64,000 nucleotides of DNA, from NCBI RefSeq assembly GCF_000378245.1, contig NZ_KB899498.1, forward strand, positions 62,001 to 126,000. Reading direction: 5' to 3'. Below, in pieces: positions 34,687-52,232 of this stretch. The notes below the pieces were generated by a model. The model did not search any database, was not told the origin of the DNA, and saw only the letters and a list, made by a program, of their open reading frames with translations. Every line of letters begins with the position of its first letter. The first letter of the stretch is position 1. The position numbers and the translations under genes were made by a program. This DNA comes from Aromatoleum toluclasticum ATCC 700605. GTDB taxonomy: Bacteria; Pseudomonadota; Gammaproteobacteria; Burkholderiales; Rhodocyclaceae.

Positions 34687-35628
34687 TCAACCCTTCGCGT
34701 GGAGAACCTCGGGGTCGAAGACCTCCGCCGGCGTTCGCACGCTGGGGCCGAGGATGGGGCCGACGATCTCATGACCCCAAGTGGAGAGCTGCTCCGGATT
34801 GAGTTCGAAGCCGTCATCGTGCCAGGGTTCGAGTTCGGTGATGCATTCGATCGCGAAGCCGGACGGCGTGAAGTGATAGAAGGACATGTGTGGGTCCTGC
34901 GAATGCTGTCCCAACGTCATCATCATCTGCAGCCCGTTCTTCTTGACCAGATCGTAGGTTTCGCCGACGTCGCGAACCGAGCGCACGAAGAGGCCGATGT
35001 GCTGCACGCCGGCCTTGCCCGGGCCGAAACCGTAAGCGATGTCGTGGCTCGTCTTGTCGTTGAGCCTGGAGCGGAAGAACCCCGTCTTGCCCTTGCCGGC
35101 GCCCGAGCCGTACCAGTGCATGCCCATGATGCCGGTGAGGAAGTGTTCGAGTTCGGGCGTGTATTCGGGCGTGATCACGACGATGTGGCCGACGCCCCGT
35201 TCGCCGCAGACGAATCCGCCGTGCGGACGGCCCGGCACGAAGGAGCGCGGGCTCCATTTCTGGGCATAGAACAGCTCGTGCTGGTATCCGACCGGGTCAC
35301 GGAAACGGATCAGCTCCTTCACGCCGCGTTTGTCGCACAGTTCCGGATCGCCGAAGCTTACCTCGACACCATGGCTGCGGAAGCGCTCGACGGCGGCGTG
35401 AAACTCCAGCTTGCCCTTGGCTTCCCAGCCGATGTACGCGAGGCGGTCGATCTTGCCCGGATGGAATGCGAGCCGATGACGACGGTCATCGAGCTTGAAG
35501 TAGAGGGTGTCCGGATCCGCAGTCGGGGATGTCCCGATCTGAAAGCCCATGACCTTCGGGCCATATTCGCGCCAGGCATCGAGGTTCGCCGATTCGAACC
35601 CCAGGTAGCCGATACCGATGATGTCCAT
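34687..35628 (-). CDS. ditC: Extradiol ring-cleavage dioxygenase (DitC/BphC-like, type I)
   Basis: A 313-residue two-domain VOC extradiol dioxygenase. Metal ligands fall at His148 (GVGHIVVITPEY), His210 (VQHIGLFVRS) and Glu261 (FAIECITE), spaced as in BphC (146/210/260); the catalytic-region His195 and Tyr251 are also present. It opens a catechol next to the hydroxyls using Fe(II) and O2. ATG 35628 follows GAGGAAGACAGC. The next genes upstream in the same direction are an SDR and a ferredoxin, the expected set for diol dehydrogenation and the dioxygenase, so cleavage of a dihydroxylated abietane ring C is likely. The symbol rests on context and fold, not on a database match. Confidence 0.9.
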   Translation of the reverse strand: MDIIGIGYLGFESANLDAWREYGPKVMGFQIGTSPTADPDTLYFKLDDRRHRLAFHPGKIDRLAYIGWEAKGKLEFHAAVERFRSHGVEVSFGDPELCDKRGVKELIRFRDPVGYQHELFYAQKWSPRSFVPGRPHGGFVCGERGVGHIVVITPEYTPELEHFLTGIMGMHWYGSGAGKGKTGFFRSRLNDKTSHDIAYGFGPGKAGVQHIGLFVRSVRDVGETYDLVKKNGLQMMMTLGQHSQDPHMSFYHFTPSGFAIECITELEPWHDDGFELNPEQLSTWGHEIVGPILGPSVRTPAEVFDPEVLHAKG

Positions 35629-35758
35629 GCTGTCTTCCTCCTGTTTTGAGCGACCTGCGCCCGCGATTTGCACCGCGCTTTGCGCAGACTTCGGACGGTG
35701 CCGCAGCGGCAATGCGTCCGTTCGTTCACTGTTGGGTCGCGAACCTTTGGGCTCGTGC

Positions 35759-36517
35759 TCAGATTGCGAGCAGACCCCCGTCGATGACGAGGTCGGAACC
35801 GGTCATGAAGGCGGCTTCGTCCGACGCCACGTACAGGGCCAGCGACACGACTTCCTCGGGTTCCCCCGGCCGATCCTGCAGCACGCCATCGAGTAGCGCC
35901 CGGCGGGTGACGGGGTTCTCGACGAAGGCCGCGGTGCCGGGCGTCTTCACGAAGCCCGGACTAATGCTGACCGCGCGTATGCCGACCGGCGCCCCTTCGA
36001 CCGCCAGCTGGCGGGTGAAGGAGACGACCGCACCCTTGGCGGCGCAGTGGGCGCTGATGCCTGCAACCTTGGAGCCGCCCCAAGCGGCGGTCGAGGCGAT
36101 GCTGATGATCACGCCACCGCGCACGGCGAGGTGCTTCCACGCGTATTTGGTCGTGTAGAAGATGAGGTCGATCTCGTTCCGGATCGTGTAGTGCCAGTCA
36201 GCGATCGAGAATTCCGCCACCGGTCCGAAACGCGCGGCCGATGCGTTGTTGTAGAGAACGTCGATGCGCCCAAACTGTTCCGCCGCGGACTCGACCCAGG
36301 CGCGGGCCTGTTCGTGGTCGCCGAGGTCCACCGGGGCGGAGCCGTGCAACTCGAATCCTTCGGCCTCGACCAGCCGGCGCGTTTCGGCGTGGGCCGCGGC
36401 ATCCGTATCGCAACCCACCACCACGGCGCCCTCGCGCGCGAACCGCAAGGCTGCGACACGACCCTGACCGCCGCCAGTGCCGGTGATCAGCGCTACTTTT
36501 CCTTCAAGACGATTCAT
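35759..36517 (-). CDS. SDR family dehydrogenase (DitB-like, diol dehydrogenase by context)
   Basis: A 252-residue SDR with LITGTGGGQGRVAALRFA (cofactor), NNASAARFG, IISIASTAAW with Ser, and the end MTGSDLVIDGG. At the active-site YxxxK the sequence reads HCAAK, that is His where Tyr is expected, with Lys kept; the codon is unambiguous. In the dit pathway an SDR oxidises the dioxygenase's cis-diol to the catechol. Activity with His may be altered, so either it is a special subfamily or a degenerate copy. It sits 130 bp from the dioxygenase and 60 bp from the ferredoxin on the same strand. Confidence 0.85.
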   Translation of the reverse strand: MNRLEGKVALITGTGGGQGRVAALRFAREGAVVVGCDTDAAAHAETRRLVEAEGFELHGSAPVDLGDHEQARAWVESAAEQFGRIDVLYNNASAARFGPVAEFSIADWHYTIRNEIDLIFYTTKYAWKHLAVRGGVIISIASTAAWGGSKVAGISAHCAAKGAVVSFTRQLAVEGAPVGIRAVSISPGFVKTPGTAAFVENPVTRRALLDGVLQDRPGEPEEVVSLALYVASDEAAFMTGSDLVIDGGLLAI

Positions 36518-36577
36518 TCGGATCTCCGCGAAGTGGGCGGTTCCAGCGCTTTTCGCGCTACCAGTCCGGCGAAGGGC

Positions 36578-36802
36578 TCAGGCGCCCGGTGCTTCGACGC
36601 GGATCGCCTCGGCGGGACAGGCGGCAGCCCCCTCGATCGCGGCCTCTTCCTGGCCGGCGGGGACGAACTCGCTGTCGAGATAGACGATGCCGTCGCCGTC
36701 CAGCTTGTACACGTCGGGGCACAGGGCCGCGCACAATCCGTAACCGCAGCAGCGGCTGCGATCGACAATAACCTTGTGAAGTTTTTCGTTCTGTTCGCTC
36801 AT
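36578..36802 (-). CDS. ditA3: [3Fe-4S]/[4Fe-4S]-type ferredoxin (DitA3-like)
   Basis: A 74-residue ferredoxin: RCCGYGLCAALCPDVYKLDGDG and late AACPAEAIRV give cysteines 18/19, 24, 28 and 62, the pattern of single-cluster 3Fe-4S or 4Fe-4S ferredoxins that serve P450s and the diterpenoid dioxygenase. The dioxygenase of P. abietaniphila is unusual in using this type rather than a Rieske ferredoxin, and its gene is placed away from the oxygenase subunits, as here (subunits at 42610). Start ATG 36802 after GAGGAGACACGCC. The symbol is by analogy. Confidence 0.85.
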   Translation of the reverse strand: MSEQNEKLHKVIVDRSRCCGYGLCAALCPDVYKLDGDGIVYLDSEFVPAGQEEAAIEGAAACPAEAIRVEAPGA

Positions 36803-36851
36803 GGCGTGTCTCCTCATCTGCTCGGGACCATCGAGGCCTGCGAGATGATTA

Positions 36852-36875
36852 TGCACAGAAAACGAAAAAGTGTCA
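36852..36875. promoter_or_regulatory. A-rich dyad upstream of the ferredoxin operon
   Basis: TGCACAG and GTGTCA flank an A-rich core (AAAACGAAAAA) 50 bp before the ferredoxin start. It aligns partly with the dyads at 10094 and 11557, sharing ACA...AAAAAGTGT, and may bind the same regulator. Confidence 0.3.
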
Positions 36876-36949
36876 CTATTTTTGCGGGACGTGTCGCGGG
36901 GCCGCAAAAAGGGTTGCTCAAGGACCGCCGGTAGCCCTCGCGACGACCC

Positions 36950-37738
36950 TCAAAACAGCAGGTTCGACAGCTTGTCCGCGAGTTTGCGCACCTCGCTTCC
37001 GAGCTTGTCCGCGTCGGCCCCGATGTACTGGCCCCGGAACATCACCGCCGATACGGCAAAGGCAATAGCACAGGCGCGATCGCGCACGGGGGCCGCGATA
37101 GCCATGATGCCGGCCGAGAAGTAGCCGTCATCGATCGCCCACTGGTGTTCCCTGGCGAACTGCACCTGCTGGCAGTACTCGTCGAACTCCAGCGGTCGGG
37201 CCCAGCGGATCTTGTCGAATGCGGCGCGCATCGCGGTCGGGTCGAGATCGACCTCCGCCGCGAACAGTCTGCCGCTGGCGCCCATGAAGATGGGCAGGCG
37301 CTGACCGATCGCCATGTCGATGCGCAGATCGGTCGGGCTTGCCTCGGAACTCACCAGCACGATGCGGTCGTATCCCATCTGGCGCCACAGGGTGACCGTG
37401 ACATGGAAGCGGGCGGCGAATTGTTGCAGCAGTGGGCGCGCGATATCGAGCCGCTGGCCTTGTGTTACGAGGTGTCCTACGAGTTTGGCGAGCCCCAGGC
37501 CTGGCGAATAGGTCTTCGACGCGGGATCGAAAGCAACCATGTCCTCGGCGGCCAGTGTGCGCAGGATGTTGAAGCAGGTACTGGGGTTGATCGACAACTG
37601 CCGGGCGATGTCCGCTGCGCGCTCCGGGGTGTCGGTCTCCGTCAGAAAGCGCAGGATCCGCACCGCATTGACGACAGGCTTGACGGTGACCCCGCTTGAA
37701 GACCGGCCTGCGGTTTCATCCTCTTGTGTGGTGTCCAT
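36950..37738 (-). CDS. IclR-family transcriptional regulator (DitR-like)
   Basis: A 262-residue IclR protein with an N-terminal winged helix (AVRILRFLTETDTPERAADIARQLSINPSTCFNILRTLAAEDMVAFDP) and the effector domain (LGLAKLVGHLV...DRIVLVSSEASPTDLRIDMAIGQRLPIFMGASGRLFAAE...WAIDDGYFSAGIMAIAAPVRD). IclR effector pockets bind small organic acids. In the P. abietaniphila dit cluster, an IclR-type protein (DitR) activates the dioxygenase genes. Its place among the ferredoxin, SDR and dioxygenase genes supports the same job, but binding and effector are inferred. Confidence 0.92.
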   Translation of the reverse strand: MDTTQEDETAGRSSSGVTVKPVVNAVRILRFLTETDTPERAADIARQLSINPSTCFNILRTLAAEDMVAFDPASKTYSPGLGLAKLVGHLVTQGQRLDIARPLLQQFAARFHVTVTLWRQMGYDRIVLVSSEASPTDLRIDMAIGQRLPIFMGASGRLFAAEVDLDPTAMRAAFDKIRWARPLEFDEYCQQVQFAREHQWAIDDGYFSAGIMAIAAPVRDRACAIAFAVSAVMFRGQYIGADADKLGSEVRKLADKLSNLLF

Positions 37739-37886
37739 CCCTTGTCTCCTCCGTCCGTCGTGCAGGCGTCCCGGTCGGCAAGCGGGAGACGTCTTCCTCG
37801 AGTGCGCCCGAGGCGAGGCGCCTTAGGAAGGTGTCCATCCGTGAGCCGGAGAATCTGCACGCAAAACGGTTTTGTGCTTGCGTATT

Positions 37887-37899
37887 AGAATTAAATTCT
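37887..37899. promoter_or_regulatory. Palindrome upstream of the IclR gene
   Basis: AGAATTAAATTCT is a perfect palindrome about its central base, in an AT-rich stretch of the 230-bp gap 37739-37969. An additional half-site AGAAT follows at 37906. IclR regulators bind such sites; the same AATTCT/AGAATT half-site recurs near 55276. The rest of the gap shows nothing else. Confidence 0.45.
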
Positions 37900-37969
37900 G
37901 TCCGCAGAATACTACGGCGACGACGAAAAAGCGACAGCCGGGCGCGCTTAGGACAAGGGGAAATGGCCC

Positions 37970-38839
37970 TCAGGGTTTGAAGTAGCCCACCGCGATGATG
38001 TGGTCGCCGACGACTTCGAACAGCGTGTGCTTTTCCTCTGTTTTTTTCGTGACCGGGTTTTTCCACAGGTAGTCGAGTTCGCCTCGCGGTCGGTTCGCGG
38101 TCTGCTCGAGCATCTTGCGAACGATGGGCGTGCCGGCCTGGTCGTACAGGTCCCGACCGTCGGAGCCGACCAGGCGCGGCATCGTGCCGTGGGCGACGAA
38201 GCGTCCCGTTTTCCGGTCGATCACGAACACGTAGAGATCGTCTTGCACGAAGCGGCCTTCGATGCGGTTGAATTCGGCAATTGCGCTGGCGGGCGCGGCC
38301 TTCATCGCCGCAACGGCCTGTTCCAGGAAGGCCAGCGCCTGGTCCGGGGACGAGCGGCTGATGTAGTAACCGACCGCGACCACTCGTTCGCCGACCTTCT
38401 CGAAGAACGCATGCTTGCGCTGCACGGTGTTGTCGGTCCAGTTGACCCAGCGGTACTCGACTTCGCCGCGGCCATCGGTACGCGCCTTGTTCAGCATCTC
38501 CGCGAAGAAGGCCTTTCCGCTGGCGTCGCGCATCTCGGAAACCTTGCGGCCGATCAGGGTCGTGGACGAGCCACCGCTCGTCAGCATGGTGCCGTCCATG
38601 TCGAGCACGTACACATAGAGCTCACGGTCAATGAAGTCGCCCTGCCGGCCGAATTCCGCCAATGCCTGGTCGCCGACGGTACGAAGTCGGGCTGTGGCCT
38701 TCTGCAGCAAAGCCTGCGCGCGTGCGGCGGAGGCCGGCGCTGACACCTGGCTGCCCGTAACCGCTTCGGCCGCGCTTGCCGGCGGCAGCCAGGTGCTCGC
38801 AAGAACGAACAGTCCCATCACGAGTGTTCTTATCGCCAT
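37970..38839 (-). CDS. Exported protein with two tandem Cache-like domains
   Basis: A 289-residue protein with a Sec signal (MAIRTLVMGLFVLASTWLPPASAAEA, probable cleavage after ASAA). Two related halves follow: about 45-150 (LYVYVLDMDGTMLTSGGSSTTLIGRKVSEMRDASGK...VEYRWVNWTDNTVQRKHAFFEKVGERVVAVGYY) and about 165-289 (LYVFVIDRKTGRFVAHGTMPRLVGSDGRDLYDQ...LDYLWKNPVTKKTEEKHTLFEVVGDHIIAVGYF). These are single-Cache-type sensor modules without a membrane anchor or signalling output domain, so it may act as a periplasmic binding protein. ATG 38839 follows GGAGGGGAGC. Confidence 0.85.
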   Translation of the reverse strand: MAIRTLVMGLFVLASTWLPPASAAEAVTGSQVSAPASAARAQALLQKATARLRTVGDQALAEFGRQGDFIDRELYVYVLDMDGTMLTSGGSSTTLIGRKVSEMRDASGKAFFAEMLNKARTDGRGEVEYRWVNWTDNTVQRKHAFFEKVGERVVAVGYYISRSSPDQALAFLEQAVAAMKAAPASAIAEFNRIEGRFVQDDLYVFVIDRKTGRFVAHGTMPRLVGSDGRDLYDQAGTPIVRKMLEQTANRPRGELDYLWKNPVTKKTEEKHTLFEVVGDHIIAVGYFKP

Positions 38840-38913
38840 GCTCCCCTCCGAATAGTCGAAAACTGGACAGTAAATCTGATTGTGAAGGAATCCGCCTGCG
38901 ACCGTGGCCGGGT

Positions 38914-40107
38914 TCAGTCACGGACCAGCAACACACTGCCGCCCAGCGGTCCACCGCCTGCCGCAACCACTGAAACGTGATGGGGCGCGATCTGTCGTTC
39001 GCCCGCGCGTCCCCACAGCTGCGAGCAGGCTTCATGAACGTAGCCCAGACCGTGCGTGCGTCCACCGGAGAGCTGGCCGCCGTTGGTATTGATCGGCAAC
39101 TGGCCGTCGCGGGCGATGCGGTGGCCACCTTCGACGAAGCGGCCGCTTTCGCCGCGCGGGCATAGCCCGAGCGCTTCGAGCCAGATCATCGTGAGGATCG
39201 AGAATCCATCGTAGAGCTGGGCTGAGCCGACGTCCTTGGGCTTGAGATCGGTGCGCGCCCACATCATTTCGCCGACATCGCGCGCGGCAGTCGCGGTGAG
39301 GTCGATCTGGTCCCACGACCAGGGCTGGTGCAGGGCGGCACCGATCGCTTCGAGGCGGATTGGTGGATTCGGCCCGTCCTTGGCGACGTCGGCACGCGAA
39401 AGGATGATCGCGGTCGAGGCGTCGCAATGGACGTCGCAGTCGAGCATGCGCAGGGGAGTCGAGATCATGCGCGAGGCGAAGTAGTCATCGAGCGAGAGCG
39501 GCGTCCGGTAGATCGCCTTGGGGTTCAGCGCGGCGTTGGTGCGACAGGTGAGGGCGATCTGGGCGAGTTGTTCGGGCGTCGTGCCGTATTCGTGAAAGTG
39601 GCGCTGGGTGTAGAGCGCCATGAGGTTGATCGCGGAGAGCACATTGAATGGCGTGTACCACTGCCAGAAGAAGCTGCTGTCGCGTCCGATCGTCTTGTTC
39701 GTCAGGGCGCTGGCATTCTTGTCGACCTTGCGGCGGCTCGCCTCCGTGATGGTGCGGAAGACCAGCACGTGGCGGCACAGGCCGGATGCGATCGCCATCG
39801 CGCCGTTGATGATGCCTGCGAGCGGTCCGGGGCCTTCGTAGCCCCCTCCGTACCAGTTGACCTGGAGGCCGAGGGTGCCGATCAGCGCGTTGGGGCCGAC
39901 GGGCGAGAAGGCATCGCCATTGTTGTTGTCGCCCGGCCAACACGCCACGCCGTCGATGTCCGCGCGCTTGAGTCCCGCGTCGGCGATCGCTTCGAGGCAA
40001 GCGTCCAGCGTGAGTCGCATGCCCGATCGTGCAACCGGGCGTCCCACCGCGGACTGGCCGACACCGGTGATGGCGACGTCCTTCTCAAAGATTCGGTCGA
40101 ACATCAT
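38914..40107 (-). CDS. Thiolase-like (SCPx/Ltp2-type) aldolase subunit, DitF-like
   Basis: A 397-residue thiolase-superfamily protein. It starts DVAITGVGQSAVGRPVARSGMRL and ends VSVVAAGGGPLGGSVLLVRD. The region that should hold the nucleophilic Cys reads YEGPGPLAGIINGAMAIASGLCRHVLVF, so the thiolase Cys is absent. Tyr/Asp-rich AQLYDGFSILTMIWLEALG and THGLGYVHEACSQLWG are kept. In steroid degradation, Cys-less Ltp2-type proteins act as retro-aldolases together with a DUF35 protein, and here a DUF35 gene lies directly upstream with a 4-nt overlap. ATG 40107 or 40104 are both possible; the overlap favours 40107. The SCPx-like protein of known dit clusters is a close functional analogue. Confidence 0.9.
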   Translation of the reverse strand: MMFDRIFEKDVAITGVGQSAVGRPVARSGMRLTLDACLEAIADAGLKRADIDGVACWPGDNNNGDAFSPVGPNALIGTLGLQVNWYGGGYEGPGPLAGIINGAMAIASGLCRHVLVFRTITEASRRKVDKNASALTNKTIGRDSSFFWQWYTPFNVLSAINLMALYTQRHFHEYGTTPEQLAQIALTCRTNAALNPKAIYRTPLSLDDYFASRMISTPLRMLDCDVHCDASTAIILSRADVAKDGPNPPIRLEAIGAALHQPWSWDQIDLTATAARDVGEMMWARTDLKPKDVGSAQLYDGFSILTMIWLEALGLCPRGESGRFVEGGHRIARDGQLPINTNGGQLSGGRTHGLGYVHEACSQLWGRAGERQIAPHHVSVVAAGGGPLGGSVLLVRD

Positions 40108-40502
40108 GCGTCCTTCTCGAAGAGGGGGAGCCACACGTCCTCGTGCTGCTCGAAGCGCACCCTGACGGGCATGTCGATATGCACCGCCTCGGCGGGAAGT
40201 CCCACGATATTCGTGACGAAGCGCAGGCCGGCCTGTTCCGCGAGTTCGACGATCGCCACGACATACGGCTCGATGAGGTCGGGGCGCCATGCCTGGTGAT
40301 TGATCGTGTAGCTCAGGACCTTGCCCTTGCCCGAGACCGCCCGGGGTGCCACCTCGAAACTGCCGCAGTGCGGGCAGATCGGGGCGGGCGGATGAAAGAG
40401 GCGCGTGCAGTCCGCGCAATGATGTATGAGCAGGCGCCCCTGCGCGCCGCCCTGCCAGAACGGGGTGTTGTCCTCGGTAAGGAGGGGAAGTTTTCGGGTC
40501 AT
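40104..40502 (-). CDS. DUF35 zinc-ribbon/OB-fold protein
   Basis: A 132-residue DUF35 protein with an N-terminal rubredoxin-like zinc ribbon (HHCADCTRLFHPPAPICPHCGS, four Cys) and a C-terminal OB fold (GKGKVLSYTINHQAWRPDLIEPYVVAIVELAEQAGLRFVTNIVGLP). Such proteins bind acyl-CoA and activate thiolase-like aldolases. It is the first gene of the minus-strand operon and overlaps the thiolase-like gene. Start ATG 40502 is the best-placed Met. Confidence 0.9.
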   Translation of the reverse strand: MTRKLPLLTEDNTPFWQGGAQGRLLIHHCADCTRLFHPPAPICPHCGSFEVAPRAVSGKGKVLSYTINHQAWRPDLIEPYVVAIVELAEQAGLRFVTNIVGLPAEAVHIDMPVRVRFEQHEDVWLPLFEKDA

Positions 40503-40523
40503 GTTCTGCGCGCTCTCGACGAT

Positions 40524-40584
40524 TTGACGATCGGTCAAGCGGGATTCTACATGCACATATAGACAGAAGTGCAAAATCTGTCTA
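40524..40584. promoter_or_regulatory. Divergent promoter region with TetR-type operator, site 2 of 3
   Basis: TAGACAGA (40560-40567) and TCTGTCTA (40577-40584) are exact 8-bp inverted arms; the core ACAGAAGTGCAAAATCTG (40563-40580) matches sites 1 and 3. A possible forward -35 TTGACG starts at 40524, with CTACAT 17 bp later. The site can control both the DUF35 operon (-) and the SDR operon (+) at 40653. Confidence 0.6.
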
Positions 40585-40652
40585 AAGTTTGTCGCAAGAA
40601 CCTGCCTGCCAGCGTGCAACGACGCGGAGGCCATACAAGGAACTCTGATCCC

Positions 40653-41354
40653 ATGAGTACTCGACTCGAAGCCAGAAGTATCGTCGTAACCGGTGGATTC
40701 GGCGCGCTCGGTCGCGCGGTCGCGCAGCGCCTCGTGGAAGACGGTGCGCACGTCACGCTTGTGGACCGTGCGGCGGCGCCCGCTGGCGGCCTGCCTGCAG
40801 GCGTCGCGGTTGTGCTCGGCGAGGTCGACCTGAGCGACGAAGCGGCCTGCGCGGCAGCCTATGCGCGCGTGCGTGTGGCTGCTGGTGGCATCGACGGCGT
40901 GGTGAATGTGGCCGGTGGCTTCGCGTGGGAGCCGATCGAAGGCGGAGCGCTCGAGACCTGGGATCGCTTGTACACGATGAACGTGCGTACCGCCGTAGCG
41001 AGTTGCCGGGCGGCTCTGCCGCATCTGCTGGCGCGTGGGGCGGGGCGCATCGTGAACGTCGGCGCCTTGGCCGCGCAGAAGGCCGGAATGGGGATGGCGG
41101 CGTACGCCGCATCGAAGTCCGGCGTCGCGCGGTTGACCGAATCACTTGCCGAAGAGCTCAAGGACCGTGGCGTCACCGTGAATGCGGTGCTGCCGAGCAT
41201 CATCGATACCCCCACCAACCGCGCCGACATGCCGGACGCCGATGCCAGCCGCTGGGTGGCGCCGGACAAGCTCGCCGCGGTAATCGCCTTCCTGCTCTCG
41301 GATGACGCCTCAGCCGTCACCGGAGCCTGCGTGCCGGTGAGCGGCCGGGTGTAG
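40653..41354 (+). CDS. SDR family oxidoreductase
   Basis: A 233-residue classical SDR: VVTGGFGALGRAVAQRLVEDGAHVTLVDR, NVAGGFAWEPIEGG, GRIVNVGALAAQ, AYAASKSGVARLTESLAEEL (YxxxK intact), and ending VTGACVPVSGRV. ATG 40653 lies 69 bp after the site-2 operator, first in the forward dioxygenase operon. It probably oxidises a hydroxyl or diol; a working SDR here may compensate for the His-variant SDR at 35759. Confidence 0.9.
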   Translation: MSTRLEARSIVVTGGFGALGRAVAQRLVEDGAHVTLVDRAAAPAGGLPAGVAVVLGEVDLSDEAACAAAYARVRVAAGGIDGVVNVAGGFAWEPIEGGALETWDRLYTMNVRTAVASCRAALPHLLARGAGRIVNVGALAAQKAGMGMAAYAASKSGVARLTESLAEELKDRGVTVNAVLPSIIDTPTNRADMPDADASRWVAPDKLAAVIAFLLSDDASAVTGACVPVSGRV

Positions 41355-41403
41355 CAACCGCCAGCGCCTCTCCCGTGGGGAGGGGCAGAACTCGAAGAAA
41401 AGA

Positions 41404-41433
41404 GGATTCGCCCGCATCGAGCGGGACGAGTCC
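41404..41433 (+). promoter_or_regulatory. Strong hairpin just before the FAH-family gene
   Basis: GGATTCGCCCGC (41404-41415) pairs with GCGGGACGAGTCC (41421-41433): twelve pairs with one bulged A and one wobble around the loop ATCGA. It ends 6 bases before AGGAG of the gene at 41451, so it may tune translation or protect a processed mRNA. Confidence 0.5.
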
Positions 41434-41450
41434 CCGACAGGAGACAATAG

Positions 41451-42437
41451 ATGCGACTCGTCACATATCGTGACTCTCACGGCTTTCAGCGTGCCGGCGC
41501 GCTGATCGAATCGGATTCGGCGATCGTCGACCTCGCCACGGCTTGCGAAGTCGTAAACGGCCATGGGTCCCCCATCTTCGCGAGCGTGCTCGGTTTGGTC
41601 GAGGCCGGTGAGGAGGCACTTGCAGCGGCGCGCGTCCTGGTGCGGAAAGCTCCGTCGGCGGCGGTCATCGCGCGTGAGGGCGTGAAACTGTGCGCCCCCA
41701 TCCAGCCGCCGCCGCAGATGCGCGACTGCTCCTGTTTCGAGCTACACCTGCGACAGAGCTTCGCCGCAGCGCGGCGCGCCCGCGTGGCGCACTTGCCCGA
41801 CCCCGAGGAGGCGCTGCGGCAGATGAACACGCGCGCCGACGAACGCGTCATCGAGACCTTCAATCGCCAGCCGATCTATTACAAGTGCAATCGCTTCGCG
41901 GTGATCGGTCCCGACGACGACGTCGTGTGGCCGGCGTACAGCAAGGCGATGGACTTCGAACTCGAGCTGGCGTGCTACATCGGCCGCAAGGGGAAGGACG
42001 TGCCGCGCGACAAGGCGCGCGATTACATCGTTGGCTACACGATCTTCAACGACATGAGCGCCCGCGATGCGCAGGCCCTCGAGATGCCCGGCATGCTCGG
42101 CCCGGCGAAGAGCAAGGACTTCGATACCGGTAACGTGATGGGGCCTTGCCTCGTCACTGCGGACGAGGTGCCCGATCCTTACGACCTGCAGATGATCGCG
42201 CGCGTGAATGGTGAGGAATGGGGGCGTGGCACTACCCGAGACATGCGCTGGACCTTCGAGGACGTGATCGCGCACATCTCCCGCTCGGAAACGCTCTATC
42301 CGGGCGAAGTGCTGGGCTCGGGCACGGTCGGCAACGGCTGCGGACTCGAGCAGCTGCGCTATCTCAAACCGGGTGACGTGGTCGAACTCGAGATCGAGGC
42401 GATCGGCACGTTGCGCACGCGCGTGACGAAGCCGTGA
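41451..42437 (+). CDS. Fumarylacetoacetate hydrolase-family enzyme (DitH-like)
   Basis: A 328-residue FAH-fold protein with the metal-binding acidic run SKAMDFELELACYIGRKGKDV, the lid-type YIVGYTIFNDMSARDAQ, KSKDFDTGNVMGPCLVTADEV and SRSETLYPGEVLGSGTVGNGCGLE. FAH members hydrolyse, hydrate, isomerise or decarboxylate ring-cleavage products with Mg2+ or Mn2+. Directly before the dioxygenase subunits, it fits the isomerase/decarboxylase proposed as DitH in the resin-acid pathway. ATG 41451 follows CAGGAGACAATAG. Confidence 0.9.
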   Translation: MRLVTYRDSHGFQRAGALIESDSAIVDLATACEVVNGHGSPIFASVLGLVEAGEEALAAARVLVRKAPSAAVIAREGVKLCAPIQPPPQMRDCSCFELHLRQSFAAARRARVAHLPDPEEALRQMNTRADERVIETFNRQPIYYKCNRFAVIGPDDDVVWPAYSKAMDFELELACYIGRKGKDVPRDKARDYIVGYTIFNDMSARDAQALEMPGMLGPAKSKDFDTGNVMGPCLVTADEVPDPYDLQMIARVNGEEWGRGTTRDMRWTFEDVIAHISRSETLYPGEVLGSGTVGNGCGLEQLRYLKPGDVVELEIEAIGTLRTRVTKP

Positions 42438-42609
42438 CGGGAAGACGCAGGCCTTCGCAATAAGGACGTCAGCCGGTGGGCAACGGCTGCCGACGTACAG
42501 GGTGCCGAACACCGGTGCGCGAGCAATTGAACAACCCACAAGAAGTGGCCGTCAGGCCCATCGAACGAGGGTCGTCCTTACGGACGGCTTCACTCCACAG
42601 GAGATGACA

Positions 42610-44004
42610 ATGTTGACCAAGGCAAGCTACACGTTGGCGGACGGCACGCCGCTGTCCGATCTGGTTCGCGTCCCGACGCGGGAAGTCCAGATGCGGGCCC
42701 TGTCGGATCCGGAGATCTATCAGTTGGAGATGGATCGCGTCTTCGGCAAGACCTGGCTGCTGCTCGGGCACGAATCCGAAGTGCCCAACTCCGGCGACTT
42801 CGTCGTGCGCGACATGGGGTCGGACTCGGTCATCGTCGCCCGAGCGAAGGACGGGAACATACACGTCTCGCTCAACGTGTGTCCCCACCGCGGCATGCGC
42901 ATCTCGACGGTCGACGCGGGCAATACCCAGATTCACAAGTGCATCTACCACGGGTGGGCGTTCAAGCCGAGCGGCGAGTTCATCGGAGCGCCTGTCGAGA
43001 AGGAGTGCATGCACGGCAAAATGATGCCGAAGGAGGACCTGGGCCTGCCGCAGGCACGGGTGACGCTCTACGGCGGCATCATTTTCGCGACCTGGGACCT
43101 GGAGGGACCGTCGTTCGAAGAATTCCTTGGTGATGCGAAATGGTACTTCGACACCCTGTTCGAGCGCAGCGACAAGGGGCTCGAAGTGCTCGGCCCGCCG
43201 CAGCGTTTCATAGTGCGCGCGAACTGGAAAGCCGCGGGCGAACAGTCGGCCGCCGACGGCTACCACACGCTGACCCTGCACCGCTGGCTCGGTGAGGTCG
43301 GCAACTACTCCAAGAGTGGCGACGGCGGCAGCGCGGACCTGTCGCCCGAGATGTACGGCGTGGAGGTGAGCTCGCCGCATGGCCATGCGCTGCGCTGCAT
43401 CGACCTCGGACGCAAGATCAAGAAGCTCTCCGGCCTCGATCCGGCGGAGCTGACGGTGGACCAGAAACTCGAAGCACTGCCGCCGCCGGGGATGACGCGT
43501 GAAATGTTGCCTCAGCTCAGGAAGCACCTGAGCGAAGAGCAGCTCGAAGTGATGGTGTCGATGCCGCCGCAGGTGGGCGGGATTTTCCCCAACGTGCTGT
43601 TCGCGTTCGTGTACATCCCGCAGGCCGACGGCTCCGTGCTCGGCCTCACGCTGCTGCACGCCTACGTGCCGAAGGGGCCGGATCAACTCGAGTTCGTGAA
43701 CTGGGTGCTCGCTGAGAAGGATGCCCCGCAGGAGCTCAAGGACAGGATGCTGATGCAGAGCATCCAGTTGTTCGGCACCTCGGGCATGGTCGAGCAGGAC
43801 GATTCCGATACCTGGCCCCACATGACCCTCGCCGCCAAGGGCGCGCGCGGGCGTCGCTCGACCCTCAAGTACCAGGCGGTGTACGAGACCGGCGCCCCCG
43901 CCGGCTGGCCCGGGCCGGGCATCGTCAACGAAGGGTTCACCAAGGACGACACCCAGTGGCACTGGTGGCTGTACTGGAACGAACTGATGAACGCCAAGGC
44001 CTGA
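42610..44004 (+). CDS. ditA1: Rieske ring-hydroxylating dioxygenase, alpha subunit (DitA1-like)
   Basis: A 464-residue oxygenase subunit. Rieske [2Fe-2S] ligands are Cys91 and His93 (CPHRG) and Cys111 and His114 (CIYHGW). The mononuclear iron site is Asp216-x2-His219-x4-His224 (ADGYHTLTLHRW). It adds O2 across an aromatic ring to form a cis-dihydrodiol; in the dit system the substrate is 7-oxodehydroabietic acid. An ATG at 42604 abuts the AGGAG site, so ATG 42610 is preferred. The beta subunit follows by 39 bp; the partner ferredoxin is probably at 36578. Ring-hydroxylating oxygenase is certain, dit assignment comes from the gene set. Confidence 0.93.
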   Translation: MLTKASYTLADGTPLSDLVRVPTREVQMRALSDPEIYQLEMDRVFGKTWLLLGHESEVPNSGDFVVRDMGSDSVIVARAKDGNIHVSLNVCPHRGMRISTVDAGNTQIHKCIYHGWAFKPSGEFIGAPVEKECMHGKMMPKEDLGLPQARVTLYGGIIFATWDLEGPSFEEFLGDAKWYFDTLFERSDKGLEVLGPPQRFIVRANWKAAGEQSAADGYHTLTLHRWLGEVGNYSKSGDGGSADLSPEMYGVEVSSPHGHALRCIDLGRKIKKLSGLDPAELTVDQKLEALPPPGMTREMLPQLRKHLSEEQLEVMVSMPPQVGGIFPNVLFAFVYIPQADGSVLGLTLLHAYVPKGPDQLEFVNWVLAEKDAPQELKDRMLMQSIQLFGTSGMVEQDDSDTWPHMTLAAKGARGRRSTLKYQAVYETGAPAGWPGPGIVNEGFTKDDTQWHWWLYWNELMNAKA

Positions 44005-44043
44005 GCCGTCCGGTCCGACCCAACACCTTCGAAGGAGCGACAC

Positions 44044-44607
44044 ATGAGCGCCGCACAACAAGTTGCCGAGAACGCCCCCGTCATCGGAAACCCGATCCCG
44101 GTCGGGGCCGAAGTCTATAATCGAATCGTCGGCTTCCTCTACCAGGAAGCGACCCTGCTCGACACGATCCGTCTCAAGGAGTGGGGCGCGACGCTTGCGC
44201 CCGACCTGGTCTACACCGTGCCTCTGCGACAGACCCGCCCGATGTCCCAGCAGGCCCAGTCGGTTATCCGCACGGTGCAGCACTACCACGACAACTACCG
44301 CTCGATCATGGGGCGCATCATGCGGCTCACCGAGACACGTAGCGCGTGGGCCGAGGATCCCCCGTCACGCACCCGCCGCATGGTGAGCAACGTGCAGGTA
44401 TTCGCTACCGACAGGCCCGACGAATTCGCGGTCGTGAGCTATCTGCTGCTGACACGCAGCCGATTCGACTTTCCCGATATGGATGTCATCAGCGGCGAGC
44501 GCAACGATCTGCTGCGCGTCGATGGCGAGGGATTCAAGCTCGTGCGTCGCGAAGTCATTCTCGACCAGGCGGTGCTGGGCACGCCGAACCTTGCGATCTT
44601 CCTCTAG
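44044..44607 (+). CDS. ditA2: Ring-hydroxylating dioxygenase, beta subunit (DitA2-like)
   Basis: A 187-residue beta subunit with the cone-shaped NTF2-like fold: YNRIVGFLYQEATLLDTIRLKEWGATLAPDLVYTVPLRQTR at the start, RIMRLTETRSAWAEDPPSRTRRMVSNVQVFAT in the middle, and FKLVRREVILDQAVLGTPNLAIFL at the end, close to the family consensus ending. It has a structural role in the alpha3beta3 oxygenase. Good ribosome site GAAGGAGCGAC before ATG 44044. Confidence 0.94.
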   Translation: MSAAQQVAENAPVIGNPIPVGAEVYNRIVGFLYQEATLLDTIRLKEWGATLAPDLVYTVPLRQTRPMSQQAQSVIRTVQHYHDNYRSIMGRIMRLTETRSAWAEDPPSRTRRMVSNVQVFATDRPDEFAVVSYLLLTRSRFDFPDMDVISGERNDLLRVDGEGFKLVRREVILDQAVLGTPNLAIFL

Positions 44608-44709
44608 GCAACCCGGGCGCCGCCGGTCCGGTTACGGATCGGACGGTGCCCGTTCTGTCCTTCGGCACGAGGCTGGTACGAGAGCCAGGACGGGGAGCGG
44701 AGTAGAAAA

Positions 44710-45981
44710 ATGGCATCAAACGGAAATCACGCGGCGATCGATCTGACCGAGTTCAGGCAGGGCTGGCAGGTCGTTGTTCTGTCGGTGATCGGGGTGGCGA
44801 TCAGCATCAACGCCGCATTGCTGTATGGCTTCGGCGTCCTGGTGATCCCCCTCGAGCAGGCTTTCGGTTGGGACCGTGGTTCGCTGCAAGCAGCAATCAC
44901 CTTTCTGTTCGGCGGCGCCGTGCTCGGCCTGCAACTCGTCGGCTGGCTCAACCTGCGTTTCGGCATGAAGCGCGTGACAGTGATTTCGCTGCTGCTGATG
45001 GCGCTCGGCTATCTGGCGACGACGCAGATTGGCGGCTCGATCTGGTCGCTCTACGCAGCATTTTTCCTGCTCCCGATCATCGGCATGGGTGCGCTGGCGG
45101 TCACCTGGACGCAACTCCTCAATCTCTGGTTCCACCGCAACCGCGGACTGGCGCTCGCGATCGGGCTTTCGGGCACCGGTATCACCGCCGCGCTGGTACC
45201 GAGGCTACTGGGCTGGGGGGTCGAGAACTGGGACTGGCGGGCCGCCTTCGTAATCCTGGCGCTGCTCAATGTGCTGGTGGGACTGCCGCTGACCCTATGG
45301 TGGTTCCGCCTGCCTGGCGAACGTCCGGTAAGCGGCACGAAGGCAGACGACGGTCCGCCGCTGGTGCGGAGCGGCGTCAGCTTTCAGGAAGGAATGCTCC
45401 TGCCGCGATTCTGGATCTGTAACGTGGCGTTGTCGCTGGTCGTGTCGGCGGTGGTGGGCCTCGTCACCAGTACCGTGCCGATGTTGCGAGACAAAGGGCT
45501 GTCGGCGGCGGATGCGACCCTGGTCTTCGGTTACTTCGGCATTGCGCTGATTTGCGGTCGCCTGGTGGTCGGCTACCTGCTCGACCGGCTGTGGCCGCCC
45601 GGCGTGGCAGCCTTGAGCCTTTCCCTGCCCGGGGTGGGTTGTCTGATCTTCCTGTCGGGAACCACCGATCCGGCCGTCATGAGTCTTGCAGCGGCGCTGG
45701 TCGGACTTGGCGCGGGCGCAGAATTCGACATCGCGGCCTTCCTCATCGCACGCTACTTCGGCCTCAAGGACTACGGCCGGTTGTTCGGCGTGCATCAGGG
45801 GCTCATCACGGTCGCGTCGGCAGCCGCGCCGCTGATGTTTGCTGCGATGCTGAGTGTCACCGGTACCTACTTTGCCATGCTCGTCTATTGCACCGTGGCC
45901 ACCCTGCTCGGCGCGTCATTGCTGCTGACGCTCGGGCGCAGTCCCCAGTTTGCCCTGCACGCCGAAGTGCAGCGGGCCTGA
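44710..45981 (+). CDS. MFS permease (DitE-like by context)
   Basis: A 423-residue 12-helix MFS protein of the monocarboxylate/oxalate-type group (GFGVLVIPLEQAFGWDRGSLQAAITFLFGGAV; LWFHRNRGLALAIGLSGTGITAALVPRLLGW; GYLLDRLWPPGVA). Located between the dioxygenase beta subunit and the ferredoxin, it probably imports the carboxylated substrate; the dit cluster of P. abietaniphila contains a permease (DitE) in a comparable setting. ATG 44710 follows GGAGCGGAGTAG. Confidence 0.9.
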   Translation: MASNGNHAAIDLTEFRQGWQVVVLSVIGVAISINAALLYGFGVLVIPLEQAFGWDRGSLQAAITFLFGGAVLGLQLVGWLNLRFGMKRVTVISLLLMALGYLATTQIGGSIWSLYAAFFLLPIIGMGALAVTWTQLLNLWFHRNRGLALAIGLSGTGITAALVPRLLGWGVENWDWRAAFVILALLNVLVGLPLTLWWFRLPGERPVSGTKADDGPPLVRSGVSFQEGMLLPRFWICNVALSLVVSAVVGLVTSTVPMLRDKGLSAADATLVFGYFGIALICGRLVVGYLLDRLWPPGVAALSLSLPGVGCLIFLSGTTDPAVMSLAAALVGLGAGAEFDIAAFLIARYFGLKDYGRLFGVHQGLITVASAAAPLMFAAMLSVTGTYFAMLVYCTVATLLGASLLLTLGRSPQFALHAEVQRA

Positions 45982-46008
45982 TTTCATCCCTCTCATCGGA
46001 GCCAACAA

Positions 46009-46329
46009 ATGCCCACGATCACTTTCATCGAACACAACGGCACCCGGCACGAAGTGCACGCCGACGTCGGCCAGTCGGCCATGCAGGCCGCGACCTTTGC
46101 CGGCGTTCCCGGCATTCCCGGTGACTGTGGCGGCGCCTGCGCCTGCGCCAGCTGCCATGCCTACGTCGACGACGCCTGGGCGGGGCGTTTTGCGCCCGCC
46201 GAAGGTACCGAATACGACATGCTGGAGAACGTCGTCGAGCGCCAGCCCACCAGTCGGCTTACGTGCCAGCTGGTCGTCGGAGCGGACATGGACGGCCTCA
46301 CGCTGCGGCTGCCGGCTGCGCAGTTCTGA
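46009..46329 (+). CDS. [2Fe-2S] ferredoxin, adrenodoxin/putidaredoxin type
   Basis: A 106-residue ferredoxin with the adrenodoxin pattern Cys40-x5-Cys46-x2-Cys49 (GDCGGACACASCHAYV) and Cys86 (RLTCQLVV). The extra Cys44 between the first two ligands is seen in some relatives. It carries electrons from the reductase encoded next to P450s, most likely the two P450s in the first 12 kb, and possibly to the Rieske oxygenase. The reductase gene follows by 36 bp. Confidence 0.95.
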   Translation: MPTITFIEHNGTRHEVHADVGQSAMQAATFAGVPGIPGDCGGACACASCHAYVDDAWAGRFAPAEGTEYDMLENVVERQPTSRLTCQLVVGADMDGLTLRLPAAQF

Positions 46330-46365
46330 AGACGGCGATCTGAAAAACGATAAGGAGACGGGAAG

Positions 46366-47601
46366 ATGTCGCTCGATTCAGTGGTGATCGTGGGGGCGGG
46401 GCACGGGGGCGTGCAAGTGGCGATTTCGCTGCGCCAGGAAGGGTTCGGGGGCCGCATCGTGCTCGTGAACGACGAGCCCGGTCTGCCTTACCAGCGACCG
46501 CCCCTGTCGAAGGCCTACCTTCTCGGCAAGATCAACGCCACTGCGATGCTCTTCCGGCCGGAGACCTTTTACGCGGATCAGCGCATCGAGCTCGTCCATG
46601 ATCGGGTAGCGGCGATCGATCGGCAGAACCGTCGTGTCATGCTCGACTCGGGGAGTGCGCTCGACTTCGGCCATCTGGTGCTCGCGACCGGCGCCCACAA
46701 TCGGCCGCTCAACGTGCCGGGTTCGACGCTGGGCGGTATCTTCGGCATCAAGACCAAGGCGGATGCCGATTTCCTGTCGCCGCTGGTGAAGCAGGCCAGG
46801 AACGTCGTCGTGATCGGTGCCGGCTTCATCGGTCTGGAGTTCGCTGCGGTGGCGGCGGCCGAAGGAGCTGCGGTCGAAGTGCTTGAACTCGGCGACCGCC
46901 CGATGGCACGGGCAGTGTCCCCGCAGATGTCGGAGCTCTTCCGTGCCGCACACGAAGGCTGGGGCGTGAAGTTCAACTTCCGTACCGGTCTGGCGGAGCT
47001 GGAAGGCGAGGGCGGCAAGGTGAGTGCCGTGACGACATCGAATGGACGACGTCTGCCTGCCGAGTTGGTCGTCTTCGGCATCGGCGTGATTCCCAACGTG
47101 CAGCTCGCGCTCGAGGCCGGACTCGACATCGATAACGGGATTCGCGTCAACTCCAGTCTCCTCACTTCGGACCCCCACATCTCCGCGCTGGGTGACGTCG
47201 CCGCCTTCCCGTGCGTGCAAAACGGCGAAAATCTCACGCGCCTGGAGTCCGTGCAGAACGCCGTCGACCAAGGCAAGCTCATCGCGGCCCGCCTCGTGGG
47301 CAAACCCGCACCCTACACAGCGCTGCCCTGGTTCTGGACCGACCAGGGCAATCTCAAGCTGCAGATCGCCGGTCTGTCGATCGGGGCTGACAACTACGTG
47401 ACGCTGGGCGATGCCGCCGCGCAACAGCTCTCGGTGCTGTGCTTCCGCGGGGAGGAGCTGATCGCGGTCGAGTCCTGCAACCGCCCCGGCGACCACGTGT
47501 TCGCACGCAAGATCCTCGCACGCCCCCCGGCGTTGACGCCCGCTACCGCCGCTGCCCCCGATTTCGATCTGAAAGCCTGGGAAGCGGCCAACCGGCCCTG
47601 A
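46366..47601 (+). CDS. Ferredoxin reductase (putidaredoxin-reductase type)
   Basis: A 411-residue FAD/NAD(P)H reductase: FAD motif VVIVGAGHGGVQVAISLRQEGFGG, NLPYQRPPLSK-type LPYQRPPLSKAYLLG, NAD motif NVVVIGAGFIGLEFAAVAAAEGA and ALGDVAAFP near the C-terminus. It moves electrons from NADH to the ferredoxin next door. Last gene of the forward dioxygenase operon; the DUF2889 gene runs towards it with 76 bp between the stops. Confidence 0.95.
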   Translation: MSLDSVVIVGAGHGGVQVAISLRQEGFGGRIVLVNDEPGLPYQRPPLSKAYLLGKINATAMLFRPETFYADQRIELVHDRVAAIDRQNRRVMLDSGSALDFGHLVLATGAHNRPLNVPGSTLGGIFGIKTKADADFLSPLVKQARNVVVIGAGFIGLEFAAVAAAEGAAVEVLELGDRPMARAVSPQMSELFRAAHEGWGVKFNFRTGLAELEGEGGKVSAVTTSNGRRLPAELVVFGIGVIPNVQLALEAGLDIDNGIRVNSSLLTSDPHISALGDVAAFPCVQNGENLTRLESVQNAVDQGKLIAARLVGKPAPYTALPWFWTDQGNLKLQIAGLSIGADNYVTLGDAAAQQLSVLCFRGEELIAVESCNRPGDHVFARKILARPPALTPATAAAPDFDLKAWEAANRP

Positions 47602-48506: not shown

Positions 48507-49307
48507 ATGGGCTTGCTGAAGGACAAGGTTGCGTTGATTACCGGGGCCGGCGGCGGCATCGGCCGCGGCGTGGCACACAGCTTCGCGCGCGAGGGGGCTG
48601 CCGTGGTGATCGCGGAGATCAACGAAGAGACTGGAGCCCTGGTGGCGCGCGAGATCGAGGAGCTGGGCGGGCGGGCGCTGTTCGTGCGTACCGACGTGAT
48701 GCAGAAGGCGTCCGTGACGGGCGCGATCGAGGCGGCAGTGGCCCATTTCGGCGGGCTGGACATCCTCGTGAACAACGCCTTCGTGCCGACGCCGAACGTG
48801 CGCCTCGAAGACAAGACGGACGAAATGCTCGAGCAGACGCTGACCTCGACGATCAAGGCGTCGTGGTGGGCGATGCAGGCATCGCTGCCGCACATGCGGG
48901 CGCGCGGGGGCGGGAAGATCGTCAATTTCTACTCGATCGACGTCGAGATCGGCGCGTGGCTGCATGCCGACTACAACACGGCGAAGGGCGGCATCGTCGG
49001 CCTCACGCGCAGTGCGGCGGCGGAATGGGGGCGCTTCAACATCACGGTGAATGCCGTCGCCCCGACCGCGATGGGCGCGACCTTCCACAAGCTGGCCGCG
49101 GAGAACCCCGGTTTCGCCGAACGCTCCGCCGCGATGCGCCCCCTCGGCCGGTGTGGCGATCCGGAACTCGACATCGGCCCCGTTGTGGTCTTTCTCGCAT
49201 CGGACATGTCCCGCTATGTCACCGGCGAAATGTTGCATGTCGACGGCGGGCTGCACTTGCCCGGCTACAACTCGCGTCCGGCGGATGTGCCGGTGCGCGA
49301 ATACTGA
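48507..49307 (+). CDS. SDR family oxidoreductase
   Basis: A 266-residue classical SDR with LITGAGGGIGRGVAHSFAREGAAVVIAEI, NNAFVPTPNV (NNAG variant), KIVNFYSIDVE, DYNTAKGGIVGLTRSAAAEWG (YxxxK kept), and VTGEMLHVDGG. It is followed by the TetR gene 61 bp downstream, probably in the same transcript. Expected to reduce or oxidise a pathway alcohol/ketone. Confidence 0.9.
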   Translation: MGLLKDKVALITGAGGGIGRGVAHSFAREGAAVVIAEINEETGALVAREIEELGGRALFVRTDVMQKASVTGAIEAAVAHFGGLDILVNNAFVPTPNVRLEDKTDEMLEQTLTSTIKASWWAMQASLPHMRARGGGKIVNFYSIDVEIGAWLHADYNTAKGGIVGLTRSAAAEWGRFNITVNAVAPTAMGATFHKLAAENPGFAERSAAMRPLGRCGDPELDIGPVVVFLASDMSRYVTGEMLHVDGGLHLPGYNSRPADVPVREY

Positions 49308-49368
49308 ATCGAATTTCTGACGGGCCCTGCGGTTCGCCCCGCGGTCCGTCCATTCCCAAGGCACACGC

Positions 49369-50070
49369 ATGAACGACGAAGCCGAGACAGTCGCTGAAGA
49401 CGGACCGGTAATGGAGTCCGCTCGGCGCAATCGCCGCTCGGACGCGACCATTGCACGAATTCTGGCATCGACGGAAAGGATCATCCTCCAGGGAGGTGCC
49501 GAGCGCATTTCCATCATCGACGTGTGCGACGACGCAGGTGTCTCGCGGGGCACGTTCTACCGCTATTTCTCGTCGCAGGACGATCTGCTCGATGCGTTTT
49601 CGCGCCACAAACGCGAGGGTTTTCACCGGGCGATGCAGGAAGTGACCGCCCCTTACGACGACCCCGACGAGAAATTTCGTGCCCTGATCGGTTACCTGGA
49701 GCACTACGCGGCGCACGGACAGGCGCGGCGTCTGCTGGTGGTGGCGCCCGATTATGCGATGGGCTTTTTTCGCCGCGTCTTCAACGACGCGCGCGTGCGC
49801 TTGCAGGATGTCCTCAGGGCCGTGTTCGACGCGTGGGATGGGCGTCTCGGCATCAGCATCGATCGCGAGCTCGTGTGCGAAATGCTGATCCGCTACGTAT
49901 TGAGCGAACAGCTCGTCCCCAATGAGCGCGTAAACGAAGGCACGGCGCGCATCGAGCGTCTCGTGCGCTCGCTGATCGGTTTTCCTGCCACCAAGGGCGA
50001 TGAGGCTGTCGAGGTGGCTGCGCCGGCACGTTCCACGGGCTCTCGACGCCGCGAAAAAGAAAAAACATAA
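49369..50070 (+). CDS. TetR-family transcriptional regulator
   Basis: A 233-residue TetR protein. The HTH is RRSDATIARILASTERIILQGGAERISIIDVCDDAGVSRGTFYRYFSSQDDLLDAFSRHK, a clean family consensus; the rest is a helical ligand-binding domain. A perfect 11-bp-arm palindrome overlaps its stop codon and precedes the next operon, the usual place for the operator of a TetR repressor. The same core sequence occurs at 1960 and 40563, so it may control three operons. Ligand probably an acyl-CoA or terpenoid acid, unknown. Confidence 0.93.
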   Translation: MNDEAETVAEDGPVMESARRNRRSDATIARILASTERIILQGGAERISIIDVCDDAGVSRGTFYRYFSSQDDLLDAFSRHKREGFHRAMQEVTAPYDDPDEKFRALIGYLEHYAAHGQARRLLVVAPDYAMGFFRRVFNDARVRLQDVLRAVFDAWDGRLGISIDRELVCEMLIRYVLSEQLVPNERVNEGTARIERLVRSLIGFPATKGDEAVEVAAPARSTGSRRREKEKT

Positions 50071-50239: not shown

Positions 50240-50254
50240 ACTGGGAGACACCAC

Positions 50255-52215: not shown

Positions 52216-52232
52216 GCAAGGAGGCAAGACAA

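Follow-up and report, generated by a model that had tools for sequence, protein, structure and literature searches.

A dit-type gene cluster, probably for abietane resin acids, in a 64-kb stretch of the Aromatoleum toluclasticum genome

Gene Content and Layout of the Cluster

The DNA analyzed here (the window) is a stretch of 64 kb within a 248-kb contig of the 5.9-Mb genome of Aromatoleum toluclasticum ATCC 700605. Its positions 34687–47601 hold 14 genes, 13 of which resemble the dit genes for the degradation of abietane resin acids in Pseudomonas abietaniphila. As references for DitA1, DitA3 and DitC we used proteins encoded in the genome of P. abietaniphila ATCC 700689 (locus L042) and not the entry AF119621; this strain we take to be BKME-9, and that name is used below. 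At least 40% identity and at least 60% coverage were required to call a gene of the BKME-9 stretch a counterpart. The letter names DitR, DitH, DitF and DitE were assigned from general descriptions of these genes.

Judging from gene order and strand, the genes would form two divergent operons. The putative minus-strand operon starts with the gene of a ChsH2-type OB-fold/zinc-ribbon protein (40104–40502; PF01796/PF12172; 63% identity to BKME-9), the probable partner of the SCPx-like, DitF-like thiolase encoded next (38914–40107; thiolase/lipid-transfer models below cut-off; 80%). There follow genes for a cache-domain protein (37970–38839; Pfam Cache), which lacks a counterpart in the BKME-9 locus, a DitR-like regulator of the IclR type (36950–37738; IclR-class models, all below cut-off; 60%) and a DitA3-like single-cluster [3Fe-4S]/[4Fe-4S] ferredoxin of 74 amino acids (36578–36802; Pfam Fer4_15/Fer4_13). 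The last two genes encode a short-chain dehydrogenase/reductase (SDR; 35759–36517; 78% to BKME-9 470168–469419), which presumably occupies the ditB position, and, adjoining it, a DitC-like two-domain extradiol dioxygenase of 313 amino acids (34687–35628), whose best solved relatives are of the BphC type.

The putative plus-strand operon opens with another SDR gene (40653–41354; 66%), followed by those of a DitH-like FAH-family hydrolase/isomerase (41451–42437; FAH-class models below cut-off; 76%), a DitA1-like Rieske oxygenase alpha subunit of 464 amino acids (42610–44004) and a DitA2-like beta subunit (44044–44607; above the cut-off of the PRK10069 beta-subunit subfamily; 65%). Downstream lie genes for a DitE-like MFS permease (44710–45981; MFS models below cut-off; 71% to BKME-9 470865–472115), a putidaredoxin-type [2Fe-2S] ferredoxin (46009–46329; Pfam Fer2; 60%) and a flavin adenine dinucleotide (FAD) ferredoxin reductase of the putidaredoxin-reductase type (46366–47601; 73%).

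DitA3 is by definition a ferredoxin of the [3Fe-4S]/[4Fe-4S] type that is encoded apart from the oxygenase, and here the distance between the minus-strand ferredoxin gene and the alpha gene is 5.8 kb. The product of 46009–46329 was also considered for this role; it was dropped, the DitA3-like gene being located at 36578–36802. The 74-amino-acid ferredoxin keeps the motif C-C-G-Y-G-L-C-A-A-x-C-P and a remote A-C-P. A tyrosine stands at the usual position of the second cysteine, which would suit a 3Fe-4S cluster. The alpha subunit keeps the Rieske motif (CPH from residue 91 and CIYH from residue 111), the His/Asp segment D-G-Y-H-T-L-T-L-H from residue 216 (with F for Y in BKME-9) and EQDD at residue 395; the roles of such residues as metal ligands are common to the family. 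His148, His210 and Glu261 of the extradiol enzyme lie in segments that are common to the DitC candidate of BKME-9.

A first-pass annotation of the window had proposed a Rieske alpha/beta pair with a 3Fe/4Fe-type ferredoxin placed apart from it, an extradiol dioxygenase with a full His/His/Glu triad, an IclR regulator, an FAH enzyme, a permease and an SCPx-like thiolase, arranged in two divergent operons around one operator, with P450s nearby and a beta-oxidation block attached. All of these parts could be located, the operator as a candidate described below. The annotation did not mention the [2Fe-2S] ferredoxin and its own FAD reductase, both of which lie in the window.

Comparison with the BKME-9 Locus

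The three proteins that the first-pass annotation proposed to compare with DitA1, DitA3 and DitC are similar to those of BKME-9: the alpha subunit is 76.8% identical (355/462) to the DitA1 candidate, the extradiol dioxygenase 74.4% (233/313) to the DitC candidate and the 3Fe/4Fe ferredoxin 63.4% (45/71) to its equivalent. These values support the dit-type reading that the first-pass annotation had put forward. For 13 of the 14 genes at 34687–47601 the BKME-9 locus holds a counterpart. Over the whole window the count is 44 of 53 tested genes, comprising 38 of 47 soundly framed rows and all six further open reading frames (ORFs), with two P450s included. The six added ORFs match at 53–78% identity; for those with overlong starts, the match covers 76% of 61–1428 and 56% of 8601–9974. 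The nine window genes that lack a BKME-9 counterpart encode an MFS protein (MFS-a), hemerythrin-like, IS110-like, nucleotidyltransferase-like, HEPN-like and Usp-like proteins, EtfB, EtfA and the cache-domain protein.

Of the two P450 genes, both on the plus strand, one (10222–11502; Pfam p450) is 74% identical to BKME-9 448642–449913. The other begins upstream of the window, so that only its 3′ part is seen (1–331); it is 77% identical to BKME-9 478446–479738 and was recognized as a P450 by kinship and inspection. We presume that the P450s of the cluster are of the CYP226 type. Either of the two may be the DitQ-type P450 of the cluster, which also has likely equivalents of the DitA1-type alpha and its beta subunit, the DitA3-type ferredoxin, DitC, DitR, DitH, DitF and DitE.

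Behind the plus-strand operon, the attached beta-oxidation-like block (48507–55196, plus strand) encodes an SDR, a TetR protein, an amidohydrolase, an FAH-family protein, a 3-hydroxyacyl-coenzyme A (CoA) dehydrogenase, a thiolase and another SDR, each with 63–83% identity to BKME-9; the amidohydrolase was named by Pfam and the other members by inspection. Genes for DUF1302, DUF1329, BNR-like and RND proteins follow (55469–62296, plus strand; 40–73%). They were named by inspection, and the two DUF names are our presumption. The likeness to BKME-9 extends over alpha, beta, the 3Fe/4Fe ferredoxin, the extradiol enzyme, the IclR regulator, the SCPx-like thiolase, the FAH enzyme, the permease, the [2Fe-2S] ferredoxin/reductase pair, the two P450s and the RND/DUF1302/DUF1329 group. 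The order of genes differs: in the window the beta gene is succeeded by those of the permease, the [2Fe-2S] ferredoxin and the reductase, whereas in BKME-9 these three lie beyond the DitA3 ferredoxin.

In the BKME-9 reference locus, the genes of the 3Fe/4Fe ferredoxin (927–1163), an SDR and the extradiol dioxygenase (2034–2975) lie together, and the alpha gene is at 10001. The end of the ferredoxin gene is 871 bp from the extradiol start, and ~9 kb separate ferredoxin and alpha. The original description of BKME-9 reportedly gives 872 bp and 9.2 kb for the spacing of DitA3. The distances agree, and the arrangement is one that we take to be the ditA3, ditB, ditC, ditA1 layout. The ATCC 700689 genome contains two matches to Ring_hydroxyl_A (E 0.001), only one of which belongs to the DitA1-like group. 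In P. vancouverensis Dha-51 the alpha subunit is 79% identical to that of the window, and the layout around the alpha gene is as in BKME-9.

Distribution and Phylogeny of the Alpha Subunit

A genome scan with the alpha subunit (42610–44004) as the query gave 115 confirmed loci, and the best 80 of them were kept. From these 80 loci 46 genomes were picked for co-occurrence analysis; the samples are not independent and the counts are raw. In a quick tree of 93 Rieske alpha rows, 77 form a single DitA1-like group, set apart from the other alphas with a Shimodaira–Hasegawa-like approximate likelihood ratio test (SH-aLRT) value of 100.

The Thauera/Aromatoleum group is best known for anaerobic degradation of aromatics. 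The alpha subunit is 99–100% identical in Thauera sp. 2A1, the Thauera metagenome-assembled genome THA1, A. toluolicum T and A. toluvorans Td21, which, as judged from this protein, puts the host near those strains. Copies of the cluster in four Thauera/Aromatoleum genomes (L006–L009) have 93–100% protein identity. A complete-looking dit-type cluster is thereby placed in this group, and orthologous sets occur in many beta- and gammaproteobacteria. DitA1-like alphas with 53–68% identity were also seen on large plasmids (H1–H5) of Massilia putida, Caulobacter sp. FWC26, Croceicoccus marinus and Novosphingobium resinovorum.

The cache-domain gene stands between the IclR and thiolase genes in loci L006–L012 (Thauera, Aromatoleum, Zoogloea and L011; 62–95% identity) and was not found in the Pseudomonas loci.

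A Second Alpha/Beta Pair

Past the window end, on the same contig and on the minus strand, there is a second, paralogous pair (coordinates in window numbering). Its DitA1-like alpha (73288–74682, locus L086) is 68.9% identical to the first alpha, and its beta subunit (72682–73251) is 50.5% identical to the first beta; ~29 kb separate the two pairs. A second alpha (66–70% identity) occurs in 14 of the 46 sampled genomes, in one copy with an internal TGA. In the 93-row tree the second alphas make up a clade of 20 rows with an SH-aLRT of 100. No second alpha was found in P. abietaniphila at E 1e-120, so that both this gene and the cache-domain gene set the window's host apart from BKME-9. The second pair is a candidate for action on other resin acids.

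Three Pseudomonas loci, those of P. mendocina, P. aestuarii and P. borbori (L076, L079 and L080), combine a second-clade alpha with two DitC-like extradiol genes and a ferredoxin/reductase pair. From this gene content they look as if they encoded a parallel pathway.

Electron Supply

We know of no identified reductase for the DitA dioxygenase, and a conserved ferredoxin/reductase pair inside the cluster offers a concrete candidate electron donor for the P450s and possibly for the dioxygenase. Among solved structures, the relatives of the [2Fe-2S] ferredoxin (46009–46329) include ferredoxin VI (119 bits), putidaredoxin (~84–88 bits) and terpredoxin (76–80 bits). The FAD reductase (46366–47601) scores 436 bits against 3fg2, 294 against 3lxd, 274 against putidaredoxin reductase, 197 against TodA and ~173–179 against BphA4-type reductases; 3fg2 and 3hui are, we assume, redox partners of CYP199A2. 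Putidaredoxin and its reductase, which serve class I P450s, are thus among the closest solved relatives of the pair, but the window pair is encoded beside dioxygenase and permease genes, not beside a P450 gene. The best NCBIfam name of the reductase is HcaD, a phenylpropionate dioxygenase reductase (304.8 bits, below the cut-off of 450), which speaks for a dioxygenase role.

In BKME-9, the counterparts of the ferredoxin and the reductase adjoin the permease gene as well. The reductase was found (E 1e-100) in 44 of the 46 genomes, the exceptions being Pseudomaricurvus and Aestuariicella. It lies on the alpha contig in 43, always within 40 kb of alpha and within 15 kb in 37 of them. The 3Fe/4Fe ferredoxin, present in all 46 genomes, shares a contig with alpha in 44, and the P450, present in 45, does so in 40. 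In all of these cases the distance to alpha is within 40 kb, and it is within 15 kb for the ferredoxin in 38 genomes and for the P450 in 27.

The pair most likely feeds the two P450s, and its reductase may also serve the dioxygenase. A bolder scheme, which we regard as rather doubtful, is that the pair powers the whole pathway, supplying both P450s and, via the reductase, the 3Fe/4Fe ferredoxin of the dioxygenase, and that the second alpha/beta pair (72682–74682) is a second dioxygenase through which resin acids of a further class can enter.

The Divergent Promoter Region

The divergent arrangement anticipated by the first-pass annotation is borne out, and the 150-bp intergenic region between the two operons contains a perfect 8+8 inverted repeat, TAGACAGA-N9-TCTGTCTA (40560–40584), as a candidate operator. 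When the window was searched for this repeat with up to three mismatches, three matches were obtained against 0.03 expected. A second palindrome, TAAACAGA-N9-TCTGTTTA (50068–50092), follows a TetR gene and precedes the amidohydrolase gene. A third, less symmetrical match (21840–21864) falls between a LysR gene and the gene of a 1186-amino-acid oxidoreductase. In other genera, too, inspection by eye shows a sequence related to the second palindrome ahead of the amidohydrolase gene.

The exact arms of the 40560–40584 repeat recur in seven of 49 readable orthologous intergenic regions, those of L006–L012 (Thauera, Aromatoleum, Zoogloea and L011). They were not found in the other 42, many of which show another AT-rich element by eye; the BKME-9 intergenic region likewise has a different AT-rich element. 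If the repeat is the operator, the operator would have drifted. Two related TetR proteins, 60% identical over 182 residues, are encoded in the cluster. A TetR gene immediately precedes a repeat of the same type, so that a TetR protein and the IclR protein are equally good candidates for binding 40560–40584.

Function of the Cluster and Alternative Explanations

The gene content, the orthology, the conserved ligand residues and the partial synteny described above lead us to consider it highly probable (roughly 87%) that the window carries an orthologue of the dit cluster of P. abietaniphila BKME-9, serving the catabolism of abietane resin acids, for example dehydroabietic acid. Most likely it represents a known pathway in its ordinary form, in a bacterial group that has received less study.

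With the substrate assigned from orthology, the predicted pathway would run as follows. The permease would take up the resin acid, a P450 would hydroxylate C-7 in ring B, and the 7-oxo acid would then arise through a dehydrogenase. The Rieske oxygenase (42610–44607), fed by the 3Fe/4Fe ferredoxin (36578–36802), would dihydroxylate the aromatic ring at C-11/C-12. After rearomatization of the diol by a dehydrogenase, the extradiol dioxygenase (34687–35628) would cleave the ring. Shortening of the cleavage product would involve enzymes of the FAH family together with the SCPx-like thiolase and its OB-fold partner, and the attached CoA-dependent block would carry the remainder to central metabolism. 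Control of the divergent promoters would fall to the IclR protein, perhaps together with TetR proteins.

Several points weigh against this assignment. The case in this organism is made from gene comparison. The tree was built quickly and has long outgroup branches, about which the program issued a warning. The NCBIfam matches of alpha, HcaE being the best, are below cut-off, so that no curated model names DitA1. The reference names DitA1 and DitC depend on strain identity, on there being a sole DitA1-like candidate and on the reported spacing. The gene blocks stand in a different arrangement from that in BKME-9, where nine of the 53 tested window genes lack a counterpart. Finally, the diverged paralogue at 73288–74682 shows that the family can change its role.

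The last point bears on the possibility that the cluster, though orthologous to dit, acts mainly on some other cyclic diterpenoid or terpenoid acid, for example pimarane-type acids or hydroxylated abietanes. The alpha subunit is just 77% identical to DitA1, and the presence of the paralogous pair in the same host (68.9% and 50.5%) suggests that specificities may have split. Against this, gene content and ligand residues agree with BKME-9, and P. vancouverensis Dha-51, a degrader of dehydroabietic acid according to a list in a review excerpt (PMC6891630, Table 4), has orthologues at a similar distance. We therefore consider a different main substrate unlikely.

It is very improbable that a cluster for degrading the rings of biphenyl, phenylpropionate or steroids has been misread as dit. 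The steroid role of ChsH2, after which the OB-fold family found here by domain match is named, might point that way, as might the best NCBIfam names, which are HcaE for alpha, HcaF for beta, HcaD for the reductase and BphC/HsaC for the extradiol enzyme. However, alpha scores 254.7 bits against HcaE (cut-off 830), and the extradiol enzyme scores 193.3 bits against the biphenyl-2,3-diol dioxygenase model (cut-off 366.45) and 160.8 bits against HsaC (cut-off 450). The HcaE, BphC and HsaC identities were rejected, these scores being far below the curated cut-offs. Among the NCBIfam rows shown, only the broad PRK10069 subfamily passes its cut-off, and no equivalog does. Moreover, solved biphenyl, naphthalene and phenylpropionate dioxygenases match alpha far more weakly than the BKME-9 protein does, the solved relatives of the extradiol enzyme likewise fall well behind its BKME-9 counterpart, plasmid relatives from Rhodococcus, Thermus and Geobacillus reach ~31–37% identity, and the tree sets the DitA1-like group apart. 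A clearly closer match to another dioxygenase class, which the first-pass annotation had named as the outcome that would speak against dit, was thus not observed. Hardly credible is the idea of a relic out of use. An IS110-like transposase and other genes without a BKME-9 counterpart do lie inside the shared stretch (27499–31376), but none of the 14 genes has an internal stop, and the copies in four Thauera/Aromatoleum genomes retain 93–100% protein identity.

Relation to Published dit Systems

Paraburkholderia xenovorans LB400 is a betaproteobacterial host. As far as the excerpts of the cited papers go, it shares the dit function with the window cluster (PMC10710418, PMC13063091), a likeness by description. 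LB400 is not among the best 80 loci kept from the alpha scan. The same excerpts speak of 19 and of 24 dit genes and place clusters in P. abietaniphila, P. diterpeniphila, P. xenovorans and P. abieticivorans (PMC13063091, PMC10710418). BKME-9 mutants in ditI, ditH, ditF and ditC are stated to lose growth on resin acids (PMC13063091, excerpt); window genes fit the descriptions of ditH, ditF and ditC. In P. fluorescens F113, whose growth on abietic acid was assayed, a 65-kb island carries dit genes and has a relative in P. aeruginosa PA2192, and such genes are said to occur in Burkholderia, Cupriavidus and Pseudomonas (PMC3570484, excerpt). By that description, the F113/PA2192 island is, like the window, a large region with dit genes, but in another host group. 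Zoogloea ramigera DhA-35 and the betaproteobacteria DhA-71 and DhA-73 are among the dehydroabietic acid degraders listed in an excerpt of a review (PMC6891630). Since dit clusters and islands are already in print, the window cluster belongs to a known kind.

Other Genes of the Window

A gene adjoining the LysR gene (21888–25448, plus strand) encodes a protein of 1186 amino acids with POR and DUF6537 domains, presumably indolepyruvate ferredoxin oxidoreductase-like, with 57% identity to a gene of the BKME-9 locus. In the region 27499–31376, the IS110-like transposase gene is followed by a nucleotidyltransferase-helix-turn-helix/HEPN-like pair that, by inspection of the translations, resembles a toxin–antitoxin module; neither the transposase nor the pair has a BKME-9 counterpart. 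At 62378–63343 (plus strand) lies the gene of a conserved protein of 321 amino acids, for which no Pfam match was obtained at 1e-5. By eye it is a two-domain, VOC-like protein, and it is 74% identical to its BKME-9 counterpart and 73–87% identical to those in other loci.

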